Below are positions 59,190 through 64,000 of a stretch of 64,000 nucleotides of DNA, piece by piece (positions within the stretch are counted from its first letter, which is position 1; each line of letters opens with the position of its first letter). The stretch is from Gammaproteobacteria bacterium (lineage in GTDB: Bacteria > Pseudomonadota > Gammaproteobacteria > Pseudomonadales > Azotimanducaceae), in assembly GCA_026706385.1 (NCBI GenBank), contig JAPOYV010000110.1, forward strand, positions 1 through 64,000. Direction: 5' to 3'. A program made the position numbers and the translations under genes. Below the pieces are notes generated by a model that did not search any database, was not told the origin of the DNA, and saw only the letters and a list, made by a program, of their open reading frames with translations.

Positions 59190-62100
59190 TTAGTCTGCGC
59201 CCACCTCGGCGCGACGGACACGCGCCGAAAACCACGTGTCGATGTGTTCTGCGCTCCGTTCCCGGGTCTCGGCAAGCGAGAGAGCCAAGTCGGCGAGTGC
59301 CACGCCGTCGCAGGCTTGCGCCAGCGCCGACTGCTGCTCCGGCGACAGGAGATCGGGATCCTGCTCGACGGACGCCATGCGCATGAAACCGTCGAAGTTC
59401 TGCCACAACCGTGTCGCTCCGGCGAGTTCGGCTGCGACCGTCGCATCGATCAAGTCGTTCTGAGCCCCTGCCTCCAAGGTCGCCACAAGCCCGTCGGCGC
59501 TGGTGACGGGGACCGCGGACGCTGCGGCGGCGACCAAACGCAGATGCTCAACGAGCAGCTCGATGTCGCTGAGCCCTCCGGGCGCTCCCACGACGTCCCA
59601 AGGTCCCTCGCCCTGCTCCGGGCGCAAGGCCGAGAGCGCCTCGCTCACCGCGCCGAACTGCCGCTCGTGGCCGAGGACCGCTTGACGAACGGCCTCGAAG
59701 CGCTCTCCGAGATCGCCGTCGGCGACCACGACTCGGGCATGCACCAGCGTGCGCAGATCGGCGGTGGACGGCCGAGCCGCGAAGTGCTCCTCGAAAGCTT
59801 GCAGGGAGTAGGCCGCATTGGAGTCCCCTTCCCCTTGCCACGGCGGGGATGGCTTGTACAAGACGCCGCCAGGCGACAACTCGCCGAACACACGCACGAA
59901 GCGCTGCAGCAATGACGTGTGCCACGCCTGCGCGTCAACCGAGGACGGGGTCGCCTCGATGCAGTCGTACACGAGCAATATACGCAGCGAGCCCCCGATG
60001 GCGAATTCCCGTCGCCCGTGCGCGTCTAGGGCGACCAAGGCCACCCGTCCGTCGCCTATCGGACCATGTTCCGCGGCGCAATCCCGCCGGACGGCAGCCA
60101 GTGCCTGGACCAGACAGGTGTCGAGAATGTCCGAGAACGGCCGCGCCGCCTCCAGGGGTTCCACCGCGCCGCGCAACATATGCGCGCCAAGCTGGAACGC
60201 GCGCTGCTGTGCCCAGTTCCGAATCTCCACGACGAGACCGTCCGTAGAGGGTGCCTTCTCCGCGATTGCGGATAGCTGCTCCGCCATCGCCTGCCGGTCG
60301 AATTCGCGGCGGTAGTAGAGCCGGACCAGACCGGTACGGGCGATGCGGGCAGTCTCGGGATCCAGTCCCTCTTCGTCCTCGATCAAGAGATCCGTGAATT
60401 CACGGCTCTGCAGACTGTCCTGGAGGAACGGGTAGCGTGCCAGCCACTGCGCTACGCGCGGCGCTCTGCCGACGAGGTCGCCGAGACTCGTCGCCGTCCG
60501 CTGCGTGCCGATCCCGATGCGGTGCAGGACGAGCCATAGGGCAGGTACGAAGACGAGGGCCGCAACCGAGGACACGACGACGCCGAAGGCCAGCGATACC
60601 ACCATGGGAACCATCGGCGCGGCACTGGGACTGCGGGTCAACATCAACGGCATGAGGCCGACGAATGACGTCACGGTGGTAATCAGAATCGGCCGGCACC
60701 GGGAAGCCGCGGCATTCTCGAGGGCAGCTTCCACGTCATCTCCATCCGCGCGGAAGCGCTGCACGCCGTGTAGCAGCACCAAGGAGGCATTGATCGCCAC
60801 GCCAGCGGCTGCCAAAAGCCCGAACGCGGAGGGCATGGAAAAGCCGAGCACGATTCCGGCGATCATGGTCACGAGGTGCCCCAAAACCGCACCCACGAAG
60901 CAGAACGGCAGCACCGCCATGACGATGAGCGGCTGATGATACGAGCGCAGCGGAATCGCGAGGAGCGCGTAGATGGCACCGAGCGCCGCCAGAAACAGCG
61001 GCGCGGCACTTGCCACCGTCTCCCGCACGGCCCGATTGCTCTCGATCTCGTAGCCAAGTCCGGGACTCGCGCTGACGGTGGCATCCAAGAACGGTCCCAT
61101 CGCAGCCAGCACCGCGTTCCCGGACGTCTGATCCAAGTCGACCTTGCCGGTGACGTTGATGGAACGTACGCCGTCGACGCGCTCGATCAACTGCGTGCCT
61201 CGCCCCCACTCCGCTTCGGCCACTGTGCGAAACGGCACGTACGTGCCGGCAGGCGTGCGCACGTGGAGTGACTGTAGGGACTCAAGCGAACGCCGAGCGT
61301 CCGCCGGGTAGCGAACCATGACGCGCAGGTCGTCCTCCCCACGCTGGACGCGTTGCGCTTCCTCGCCGTAGAAGGCCTGCCTGACCTGGCGCCCCACGTC
61401 GGCGAGGGTGAGTCCGAGCGCGGCACCGGTGTCGGTGAGCGAAAGCGAGAGTTCCTCCTTCCCTTCCATGAACGAGACGGACACCTCGCGGACGCCCGGG
61501 TAGCTGACCAGCTCCGCCTCGACCGCGGCCGAGGCAGCGGCTAAGCCGTCCACGCTGTTCCCGAACAGTCGGATGTCGATGTCCGGGGCCGTCTGCCTGA
61601 AGTCGGTGACAAAGACAAGCTCCTCGGCACCTTCAATGGACCCGACCGCGGTGCGCCAAGCGTCTGCCACCTCAACGGTCGCAACGTCGCGTTCCTCCGA
61701 TGGCGACAACTGCAGGTAGATCTCGCCGAGGTGGCTCCCGGTGGGCGCGTCGCCCGACCCACCCGGCAGGTGCGAGCCGTGCGATTCGGCTATGTGCACG
61801 ATGACGGGCGCCCCGTATTCGCGGGCGAGTTCGGCCTGCAAACCCCGGGCCGCCGCGGCCAATCGCACGAGCGCCTGGTCGGTGTCGTGCCGCGGCGCGC
61901 CGAAAGGCATGGTCAGCCTGGCCACGATCCTGTCGCCCTGATCTGAGATCAGAAACGAGAACGGCAAGTGGCCGCCGACCACCGTCGCAACGGCAAGCCC
62001 GAACGCAACGACACCGGACGTGACGGTCAGCGCACGCTTATCCAGCGCCTGCCGGACCAGGCGTCGGAAGGTGCCTTGGATGAACGTCTCAAGCCCGCGT

Positions 62101-63752
62101 TCGAAGCGAACCTGAACGCGGGCGAATGCCGCCCCCAGCCGACCGAGCGCACCGCTCATGTGTGCGGCCACGACCAGGCATGTCACGCCGGCCGTCAGGC
62201 CGATCGCATCGCCCGGACTCGCCGCCAGCACGATCACGGCGAGCACGGCGACGGCCAGCAGCGCGATGCCGAACTCGCCGAGCGGCATCGCGTCCGATCG
62301 ATGCCCCAGGTGCAGCGGCAGGATCACGTGGCACTCGATCAGCGAAAACGCAAGACAGCAGATCACCGGCGCCGCCACCGCCGCCATGAACTGGCCGGCG
62401 ACGCCGGTCAGGAAAAGCATGGGGATGAACGCGGCCACGGTCGTCAAGACCCCGAACGTGACAGGCACGAATACGCGCCGGGCACCCTCGATGGCCCCGG
62501 CCAGTTGGCCCGCTCCTTCGCGCTGCGCAACATACGCGGACTCCCCGACGACGACCGCGTCGTCGACCAGAAGCCCGAGGACCAGTATGAAACCGATCAA
62601 CGAAATCGCGTCGATCGAGACACCGAAGCAGAAGAGCAGGAAGACGGCACCGAGCAGCGCGATCGGGATGCCTGCCGCAACCCACAGCGCCAAGTGCGGC
62701 CGCAGGAACAGCGCGAGTACCACGAGCACCAGCAACAATCCCTGCAGGCCGCTGTCGATCAACGTCTCCAGACGGTCCACGAGCAACGACGACTGGTCGT
62801 TCCACACCGTGAGTTCGACGTCTTCCGGGTATTTGGCCGTGGACTCGGCCACATAGCGCCTGACTTCGGCCGAGATCTCCCGCAGATCCTGGCTTCCCAC
62901 TTGGGAGACGCGTATCAGCGCCGCCGGTCGCCCATCGAACCGAAACTCCTGTCCCGTGTCCGCGAAGCCGTCGACGACGCGCGCAACGTCCTCCAGAAGC
63001 ACGCGCGTGCCGTCCTCGCGCGTGGTCACCTCGATCCGGCCGAATTCCTCCCCGCGATCCGCTTGCCCGTGGGTTCGCAGGAGCAGCTCGCCTCGCTCGG
63101 TCTTGATGGCACCACCCGGGAGGTCGACGGAGTTGCCGCGAATGGCACCCGCGACCTGGTCGAACGTGAGTTGGTTCCGCTGCAGCGACGCTTCGGAGAC
63201 TTCGATGGAAATCTCGTAGGGGCGGACGTTGGCGACGGACGCCCGCGTAACCGCCGGCAGGGATAGAAGGTCGTCGCGCACACGGCGCGCAAGCTCCTTC
63301 AGCGCCCTCTCGTCCGTCGGACCCGTGACGGCCACCTCGATCACGACATCGCTCGAGGACAGGAGCCTCACCACAGGCGTTTCCGTCTCCTTGGGCAAGG
63401 TGTCGATCGCGTTGACCTGGTTCTGGACGTCGGCCAGCACGGCGGCCCGGTCGGCATCGAAAAGCAAGGCGACCGCAACCCGGCACCGCCCCTCCTCTGC
63501 GGTGGACCGGATGCGGTCGATGCCCTCGATGCCCTCGAGCTTCTCGTCGACGCGCGCGCAAACGGCCGACTCGACCTCCTCGGGCGCGGCGCCGAGGTAC
63601 GGAACGACGATGCTGATGATCGGCACGTCGAGGTCCGGCCAGATCTGCACCGAGATCCGTGCGAACGACGCGATGCCTGCGAAAAGCAAGAACGCCACCA
63701 GCAGATTGGTCGCCACGGGATTCGTGGCGAACCAGGAGACCAGGCGCTTCAC
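59190..63752 (-). CDS. RND efflux permease fused to a degenerate GlnE-like adenylyltransferase domain
   Basis: A 1,520-residue protein; ordinary RND permeases have about 1,040. Residues 1-1080 are a complete inner-membrane HAE1/AcrB-type pump with two six-helix repeats and two porter loops. The proton-relay pair Asp397-Asp398 is in GLLVDDAVVVGE. Residues 1090-1520 match the C-terminal half of glutamine-synthetase adenylyltransferase (GlnE): QWLARYPFLQDSL, GGVLYKPSP, SLQAFEEHF, LVHARVVVADGDL and PGGLSDIELLVEHLRL (1391-1406). The catalytic SDxD is replaced by SLRI (1255-1258), so the domain is probably a binding or signalling module. The GTG start overlaps the adaptor stop by four bases. The adaptor gene lies upstream on the same strand. 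Confidence 0.85.
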   Translation of the reverse strand: MKRLVSWFATNPVATNLLVAFLLFAGIASFARISVQIWPDLDVPIISIVVPYLGAAPEEVESAVCARVDEKLEGIEGIDRIRSTAEEGRCRVAVALLFDADRAAVLADVQNQVNAIDTLPKETETPVVRLLSSSDVVIEVAVTGPTDERALKELARRVRDDLLSLPAVTRASVANVRPYEISIEVSEASLQRNQLTFDQVAGAIRGNSVDLPGGAIKTERGELLLRTHGQADRGEEFGRIEVTTREDGTRVLLEDVARVVDGFADTGQEFRFDGRPAALIRVSQVGSQDLREISAEVRRYVAESTAKYPEDVELTVWNDQSSLLVDRLETLIDSGLQGLLLVLVVLALFLRPHLALWVAAGIPIALLGAVFLLFCFGVSIDAISLIGFILVLGLLVDDAVVVGESAYVAQREGAGQLAGAIEGARRVFVPVTFGVLTTVAAFIPMLFLTGVAGQFMAAVAAPVICCLAFSLIECHVILPLHLGHRSDAMPLGEFGIALLAVAVLAVIVLAASPGDAIGLTAGVTCLVVAAHMSGALGRLGAAFARVQVRFERGLETFIQGTFRRLVRQALDKRALTVTSGVVAFGLAVATVVGGHLPFSFLISDQGDRIVARLTMPFGAPRHDTDQALVRLAAAARGLQAELAREYGAPVIVHIAESHGSHLPGGSGDAPTGSHLGEIYLQLSPSEERDVATVEVADAWRTAVGSIEGAEELVFVTDFRQTAPDIDIRLFGNSVDGLAAASAAVEAELVSYPGVREVSVSFMEGKEELSLSLTDTGAALGLTLADVGRQVRQAFYGEEAQRVQRGEDDLRVMVRYPADARRSLESLQSLHVRTPAGTYVPFRTVAEAEWGRGTQLIERVDGVRSINVTGKVDLDQTSGNAVLAAMGPFLDATVSASPGLGYEIESNRAVRETVASAAPLFLAALGAIYALLAIPLRSYHQPLIVMAVLPFCFVGAVLGHLVTMIAGIVLGFSMPSAFGLLAAAGVAINASLVLLHGVQRFRADGDDVEAALENAAASRCRPILITTVTSFVGLMPLMLTRSPSAAPMVPMVVSLAFGVVVSSVAALVFVPALWLVLHRIGIGTQRTATSLGDLVGRAPRVAQWLARYPFLQDSLQSREFTDLLIEDEEGLDPETARIARTGLVRLYYRREFDRQAMAEQLSAIAEKAPSTDGLVVEIRNWAQQRAFQLGAHMLRGAVEPLEAARPFSDILDTCLVQALAAVRRDCAAEHGPIGDGRVALVALDAHGRREFAIGGSLRILLVYDCIEATPSSVDAQAWHTSLLQRFVRVFGELSPGGVLYKPSPPWQGEGDSNAAYSLQAFEEHFAARPSTADLRTLVHARVVVADGDLGERFEAVRQAVLGHERQFGAVSEALSALRPEQGEGPWDVVGAPGGLSDIELLVEHLRLVAAAASAVPVTSADGLVATLEAGAQNDLIDATVAAELAGATRLWQNFDGFMRMASVEQDPDLLSPEQQSALAQACDGVALADLALSLAETRERSAEHIDTWFSARVRRAEVGAD

Positions 63753-64000
63753 GGCGCTGCTTCCGGTGCGCCCCCGTTGCCCCCCGCGCGGACGCGCAAA
63801 CCATCGACCGCGCCGGGCAGCCGCGTCAGGGACACCCGTTCGCCGCTCTGCAAACCCTGAACGAAGGCCTCCTCGCCGAGCAGGCGCAACACGTCCACCT
63901 GCCGTACGGCGAGCCGACCGTCTGCGTCGATGACATGCACCTGCCTGTCCGACTGAAGCGCTGCACGCGGGACCACCACCGCGTCCCCGACCTCGCGGCC
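63749..64000 (-). CDS. RND periplasmic adaptor (membrane-fusion protein), cut by window end
   Basis: Only the C-terminal 83 residues are visible. DAVVVPRAAL, QVHVIDADGRLAVRQVDVL and GLQSGERVSLTRLPGAVDG are typical of the barrel and membrane-proximal regions of HlyD/AcrA-type adaptors that connect the permease to the outer-membrane channel. The C-terminus is glycine-rich. The permease is translated from an overlapping start, so the pump is one operon. Confidence 0.85.
   Translation of the reverse strand, partial: GREVGDAVVVPRAALQSDRQVHVIDADGRLAVRQVDVLRLLGEEAFVQGLQSGERVSLTRLPGAVDGLRVRAGGNGGAPEAAP

Follow-up and report, generated by a model that had tools for sequence, protein, structure and literature searches.

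RND permeases carrying a degenerate GlnE half, with a sister module on AlkB-type proteins of srp-type peptide clusters

Results

A permease continued by half of an adenylyltransferase

The window, by which we mean the whole 64,000-nucleotide stretch of DNA that was analysed, carries near its end a minus-strand gene (59190..63752) for a protein of 1520 amino acids in which an RND permease is followed by a degenerate C-terminal half of the glutamine synthetase adenylyltransferase GlnE. Its GTG start was inferred from the paralogues. The AcrB/MexB-like permease part covers residues 1–1093 (60474..63752, minus strand), and the module, residues 1094–1520 (59193..60473, minus strand), aligns to residues 558–946 of E. 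coli GlnE. Within the module, on the same strand, lie the conserved stretch REFTDL...IARTGLVRLYYRREFD (residues 1117–1152; 60297..60404), which includes a segment of about 23 residues, the old GSDLD active-site segment, now G-G-S-L-R (residues 1253–1257; 59982..59996), and the old DxRLRP segment, now K-P-S-P-P-W (residues 1300–1305; 59838..59855). The inferred permease start shares 4 bases with a gene for an HlyD-type membrane fusion protein, whose 3' end falls in the window (63749..64000, minus strand). The full gene (L006:8750-9919:-; contig C64, 63749–64918) runs past the window end, and upstream of it are genes for a second RND permease and a second membrane fusion protein.

The permease part shows ACR_tran homology (E 1.5e-144) in two stretches spanning both permease halves, across which MexB and other solved chains also align. 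Residue roles were assigned from the proton relay of AcrB, which we take to consist of Asp407, Asp408, Lys940 and Arg971. Asp397, Asp398, Arg1020 and Thr1025 are retained in all 15 fusions compared; the Asp pair and the Arg are thus present throughout, with Ile or Val at the Lys940 position in 15/15.

The window genome (5.1 Mb, 134 contigs) yields three GlnE-family matches, every one the C-terminus of an RND permease and every one adjoined by an HlyD_3 gene. The other two paralogues are 54 and 52% identical to the window protein. The RND-GlnE order, first read in the earlier note from the DNA alone, is thereby borne out by the ACR_tran and GlnE C-half matches, by the three paralogues and by the family genomes described below. 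A sequencing or assembly join at the fusion border would have to have arisen in three paralogues of one genome and again in independent assemblies elsewhere, and we dismiss it as an explanation.

Spread of the module

With the three modules of the window genome as queries, an RND-type module was found in 20 of 200 genomes of the family, as judged by frame length and score with at most 8 candidates scored per genome and several frames truncated. A second class, with frames of about 800 amino acids, is an AlkB-type protein bearing the same module. The best 80 of 138 relatives from the genome scan comprise 21 RND-side and 59 AlkB-side loci, 5 of the 59 being missed by the motif rule; the homologues of like domain order that the earlier note had proposed to look for therefore exist both in the family sample and in these 21 loci. 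Among these best 80 of 138, the RND-side records are all labelled Gammaproteobacteria (21/21), and the AlkB-side labels include Gamma-, Alpha- and Deltaproteobacteria, Nitrospira, Nitrospinota, Latescibacterota, Gemmatimonadetes, Bryobacterales and Terriglobia.

In 369 genomes of the class (E 1e-20, at most 4 candidates scored per genome), the module-level hits among the matches listed were the window genome's own three and one 822-residue frame of AlkB-fusion length, classed by length alone; the rest were at GlnE level. A scan of 398 genomes of the phylum (E 1e-45, at most 4 candidates scored per genome) gave module-level matches in the window genome only, the other 52 matching genomes being at GlnE level. 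No further carrier was seen in 33 module-holding genomes, whose frames were of RND, AlkB or GlnE length or truncated. Bin names lead us to read most of the module-bearing bacteria as sponge symbionts, a sponge being named in two records. Our search of open-access papers found none on an RND-GlnE fusion, in agreement with the earlier note, which knew of no described protein of such architecture.

Loss of the catalytic acids and retention of the fold

GlnE has two homologous nucleotidyltransferase halves, of which the fusion holds only one, joined to the permease. The module matches the GlnE C-half by sequence, its fold is predicted with confidence, and structural alignment of the model with GlnE, a comparison suggested beforehand in the earlier note, indicates that the C-half fold is retained.

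In one alignment, each of 28 intact GlnE C-halves has the three catalytic acids together and none of 30 RND, 62 AlkB and 6 unclassified modules does, a count restricted to modules with at least about 250 residues matched and leaving aside the truncated RND copy L046. The window protein has Ser1255, Arg1257 and Ser1302 in place of the three catalytic Asp of SDxD and DxRLRP, and the catalytic loss first noticed there holds for every RND module counted. The site might instead have been rebuilt, giving a nucleotide-using or nucleotide-binding enzyme of altered activity. The retained fold would suit this idea, as would the acids found at both of the first two catalytic positions in 6 of 62 AlkB modules, but none of the 98 modules has all three, and the RND modules carry Pro or Ser, and mostly Arg, Lys or Glu, where the acids once stood. 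We consider altered catalysis very improbable.

Simple Nei-Gojobori counts on hand-picked pairs, with sequences recurring between pairs, gave module dN/dS values of 0.176–0.323 in 7 RND pairs (carriers 0.056–0.147) and 0.211–0.369 in 5 AlkB pairs (carriers 0.076–0.195). These ratios indicate purifying selection on the modules, genuine but less strict than that on the carriers; since all 12 pairs show the module evolving faster than its carrier, the constraint is only moderate. Were the module a neutral passenger, a harmless tail retained for no other reason, both the missing acids and this consistently greater variability would be expected. However, dN/dS stays at 0.18–0.37 in all 12 pairs and the predicted fold is confident, which makes a neutral passenger improbable. 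The most conserved columns of the modules fall in the N-terminal helical part, not in the old catalytic core, and this helical part is more variable in six alpha-type and eight gamma-type GlnEs than in the modules.

Descent from an alphaproteobacterial-type GlnE

Trees were built with 15 RND modules (two of these rows being one gene) and 27 AlkB modules, a chosen subset of those available. In the second tree, of 74 hand-chosen rows from which the long or odd GlnE rows L196 and L197 had been dropped after the first, the RND modules form one clade (100/100), the AlkB modules another (100/100), and the two are sisters (100/99). The first tree agrees on both clades and on their sister relationship. 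The nearest neighbour of the joint clade (100/99) is the C-half of an intact GlnE, L223 (L223:3188-6220:-), a protein of 1011 amino acids whose halves both bear the catalytic motifs and which comes from an Alphaproteobacteria MAG. Next in the tree come two GlnEs of MAGs labelled Alphaproteobacteria; 12 more alpha-type rows were classed as such by score. Among 15 of the fusions (105 pairs), carrier identity tracks module identity with r = 0.87.

By pattern, the segment of about 23 residues occurs in 27 of 30 RND, 62 of 62 AlkB and 5 of 6 unclassified modules, and in none of the 21 other GlnE C-halves of the tree set. It is also present in L223, which leads us to reject the idea that it arose in the dead modules. 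Since L223 is both the nearest in the tree and a holder of the segment, the donor was probably a GlnE of the L223 kind, a kind met once in our sequence comparison. A gammaproteobacterial donor can be rejected, the module profile scoring 129–218 bits against six alpha-type C-halves vs 67–102 against eight of gamma type and both trees placing the modules among the alpha type. The genome of L223 (G216) also contains a second GlnE-length frame and two AlkB-type modules.

A separate inactivation was observed in genera g7 and g34, whose alpha-type GlnE paralogues (L057:3316-6267:-, L058:3374-6313:-, L059:1309-4293:+ and L060:3759-6767:-) have intact N-half motifs (SSDIDLI, DLRLRP) and degenerate C-half motifs. 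Judging by these motifs, such a GlnE could be left able only to remove AMP. Segment pattern and tree exclude these paralogues as donors of the module.

The sister module lies in srp-type clusters

The protein of locus L147, the one AlkB-side fusion so tested, aligns over residues 51–373 with alkane 1-monooxygenase (8f6t; 7.1e-48), His motifs included. Among its neighbours, two score above the family cut-offs, one encoding a TOMM SagD/YcaO protein and the other a tryptophan-halogenase-like protein. NHLM-type exporter genes and a gene for an NHLP-leader protein that continues into a squalene-cyclase-like tail were recognised as best matches under the cut-offs.

These neighbourhoods resemble the srp clusters, reportedly defined by a 2021 paper in J. 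Am. Chem. Soc. With contig ends counted as misses, a YcaO/TOMM family occurs in 47 of the 59 AlkB-side loci, and three further families recur in 40, 34 and 28 of them (best 80 of 138 relatives). A short open reading frame ending in CCCW is present in 31 of the 59, 27 of these having the YcaO family too (same best 80 of 138). Locus L076 unites genes for an AlkB-module protein, a YcaO protein, a halogenase-like protein, an NHLP-leader-type protein and an LCCCW-ended frame, the last about 3.6 kb from the AlkB-module gene. LCCCW is also the SrpE core given in the excerpt available of PMC10858898; the excerpt of PMC9426513 makes no mention of an AlkB fusion with a GlnE module. On the RND side, about 7 kb were searched in each of 21 loci (best 80 of 138): no AlkB-side family was present, bar a generic ABC ATPase in L078, and no frame ended in CCCW.

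Several other features of the AlkB-side loci were observed. Directly upstream of the AlkB-module genes of L147 and L129 lie genes for proteins of 432–433 amino acids (L147:4419-5714:+; L129:4433-5731:+) that combine an NHLP-type leader, matching its NCBIfam model below cut-off, with a squalene-hopene-cyclase-like stretch. The family found in 40 of the 59 loci (best 80 of 138) is represented in L147 by a 372-residue protein (L147:10552-11667:+) without a Pfam or NCBIfam match. RND permease genes occur within about 7 kb of the AlkB-module clusters of L098, L102, L104, L108, L147 and L151, from Nitrospira-type and Terriglobia MAGs; those that end inside the locus have no module.

The two module types also meet in the same genomes. 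In the family sample an AlkB-type module accompanies the RND module in 19 of 20 genomes vs 19 of 180 others, a comparison confounded by kinship. Among the 19 of 20, the AlkB-type gene of G060 is interrupted by the contig end ahead of the module, and several more were assigned on frame length and score alone. Of the genomes tested, YcaO was likewise present in 13 of 15 with RND modules vs 2 of 7 others, again confounded by kinship; in G130 it is on a different contig from the AlkB-type module. The window genome, with its three RND modules, gave no AlkB-type module, no YcaO match and no NHLP leader over cut-off, and none of its three desaturase-family genes comes close to the module-bearing AlkB. 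Two weak NHLP-leader matches on contig C88 fall under the cut-off and by eye resemble nitrile-hydratase-type proteins.

These observations bear on the idea that the module is an adaptor of srp-type biosynthesis, recognising a precursor, maturase or product and so bringing oxygenase and exporter to the same peptide. The frequencies of YcaO and CCCW-ended frames in AlkB-side loci, the resemblance of the CCCW end to the SrpE core, the gene set of L076 and the joint occurrence of both modules in genomes are in line with it. However, that joint occurrence is confounded by kinship, YcaO and CCCW ends are missing from the RND-side loci searched, and the window genome is without the AlkB/YcaO cluster, so that this cluster cannot supply an obligatory partner there. 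We regard the adaptor idea as tentative.

Nitrogen genes of the window genome

An intact glnE elsewhere in the genome, a question raised by the earlier note, was not found by a GlnE-family search of the contigs; PII is present and so is GlnD, over its cut-off. Nor did any of the 16 genomes of the window's genus in the 200-genome family sample give an intact-scale GlnE match, and 5 of the 16 gave no GlnE-family match whatever, hence no module; across the sample, some GlnE-family match occurs in 27 of 37 genera. In g7 and g34, intact GlnE and RND modules share the same genomes. With both present there, and GlnE missing from the window's genus whether or not a module occurs, the module is no substitute for a lost GlnE.

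The module might still bind PII or glutamine as GlnE does and tune efflux to nitrogen supply. The half from which it descends is the one that adenylylates glutamine synthetase, and PII switches GlnE, according to the excerpt available of PMC12409994, which makes nitrogen control conceivable; the persistence of PII and GlnD beside the missing GlnE fits as well. Against it stand the lack of GlnE across the sampled genomes of the genus even where there is no module, so that the module is not a substitute for a lost GlnE, and the AlkB-type carrier of the sister module, which belongs to a peptide cluster and leaves nitrogen sensing as just one possible role among several. Nitrogen control is thus a doubtful, if reasonable, candidate.

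Discussion

Our preferred reading, to which we give a probability of roughly 0.6, is that the RND-fused module is a pseudoenzyme serving as a docking or sensing domain, a role that from sequence looks the same as one in oligomerisation. The window protein would be a proton-driven RND exporter with a C-terminal pseudo-adenylyltransferase taken from an alphaproteobacterial-type GlnE C-half. Both carrier families, RND and AlkB, end in the cytosol, and the module is therefore presumably cytosolic. A candidate partner, either an old GlnE binder or a later acquisition, may bind the module and thereby recruit or gate the pump, and the AlkB copy may likewise bring the oxygenase to its partner. The position of the AlkB sister in a peptide cluster favours a partner of wider use. 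PII is one tentative candidate and a protein of the peptide pathway another, with room for a different protein.

On a broader and more speculative view, the dead GlnE half would be a portable cytosolic adaptor of sponge symbionts, joined in one event to RND pumps and in another to an AlkB-like tailoring enzyme of srp-type clusters that later spread across phyla. A single partner common to both, with PII and a peptide-pathway protein as the candidates, might then couple oxidation and export. We hold this scheme to be possible rather than probable.

In general terms, what began as part of an enzyme has apparently been reused as a portable unit for docking or sensing. A domain from a nitrogen-signalling enzyme is now an accessory common to two unrelated membrane proteins, and the intact GlnE L223 marks the likely route from enzyme to accessory. 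The large C-terminal domain on some RND pumps could be a control point, and an unexplained domain has been added to the AlkB-like protein of a peptide cluster type widespread in sponge microbiomes. As the module is soluble by origin, direct expression and partner testing are possible.

Comparison with known systems

Compared with RND permeases of the AcrB/MexB/MdtB type (PF00873), the window protein shares both permease halves, an adjoining fusion-protein gene, the Asp pair and the Arg. It differs in its 427-residue C-terminal domain and in Ile/Val for Lys940, and it scores under the NCBIfam subfamily cut-offs. Unlike the GlnE C-terminal half (PF03710, PF08335; PDB 3k7d), the module stands without an N-terminal half and without the catalytic acids, and is joined to a membrane transporter.

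The sister fusion resembles AlkB alkane 1-monooxygenase (PDB 8f6t, 8sbb) in homology and in the membrane di-iron His motifs, and differs in its C-terminal degenerate GlnE module and in the position of its gene within a peptide cluster. Whereas the RND fusions sit outside clusters like the srp proteusin clusters of sponge microbiomes (SrpE, the YcaO protein SrpC and the brominase SrpI), the AlkB side matches them in its LCCCW-ended precursor and in its YcaO, halogenase-like and NHLP-leader-type genes.
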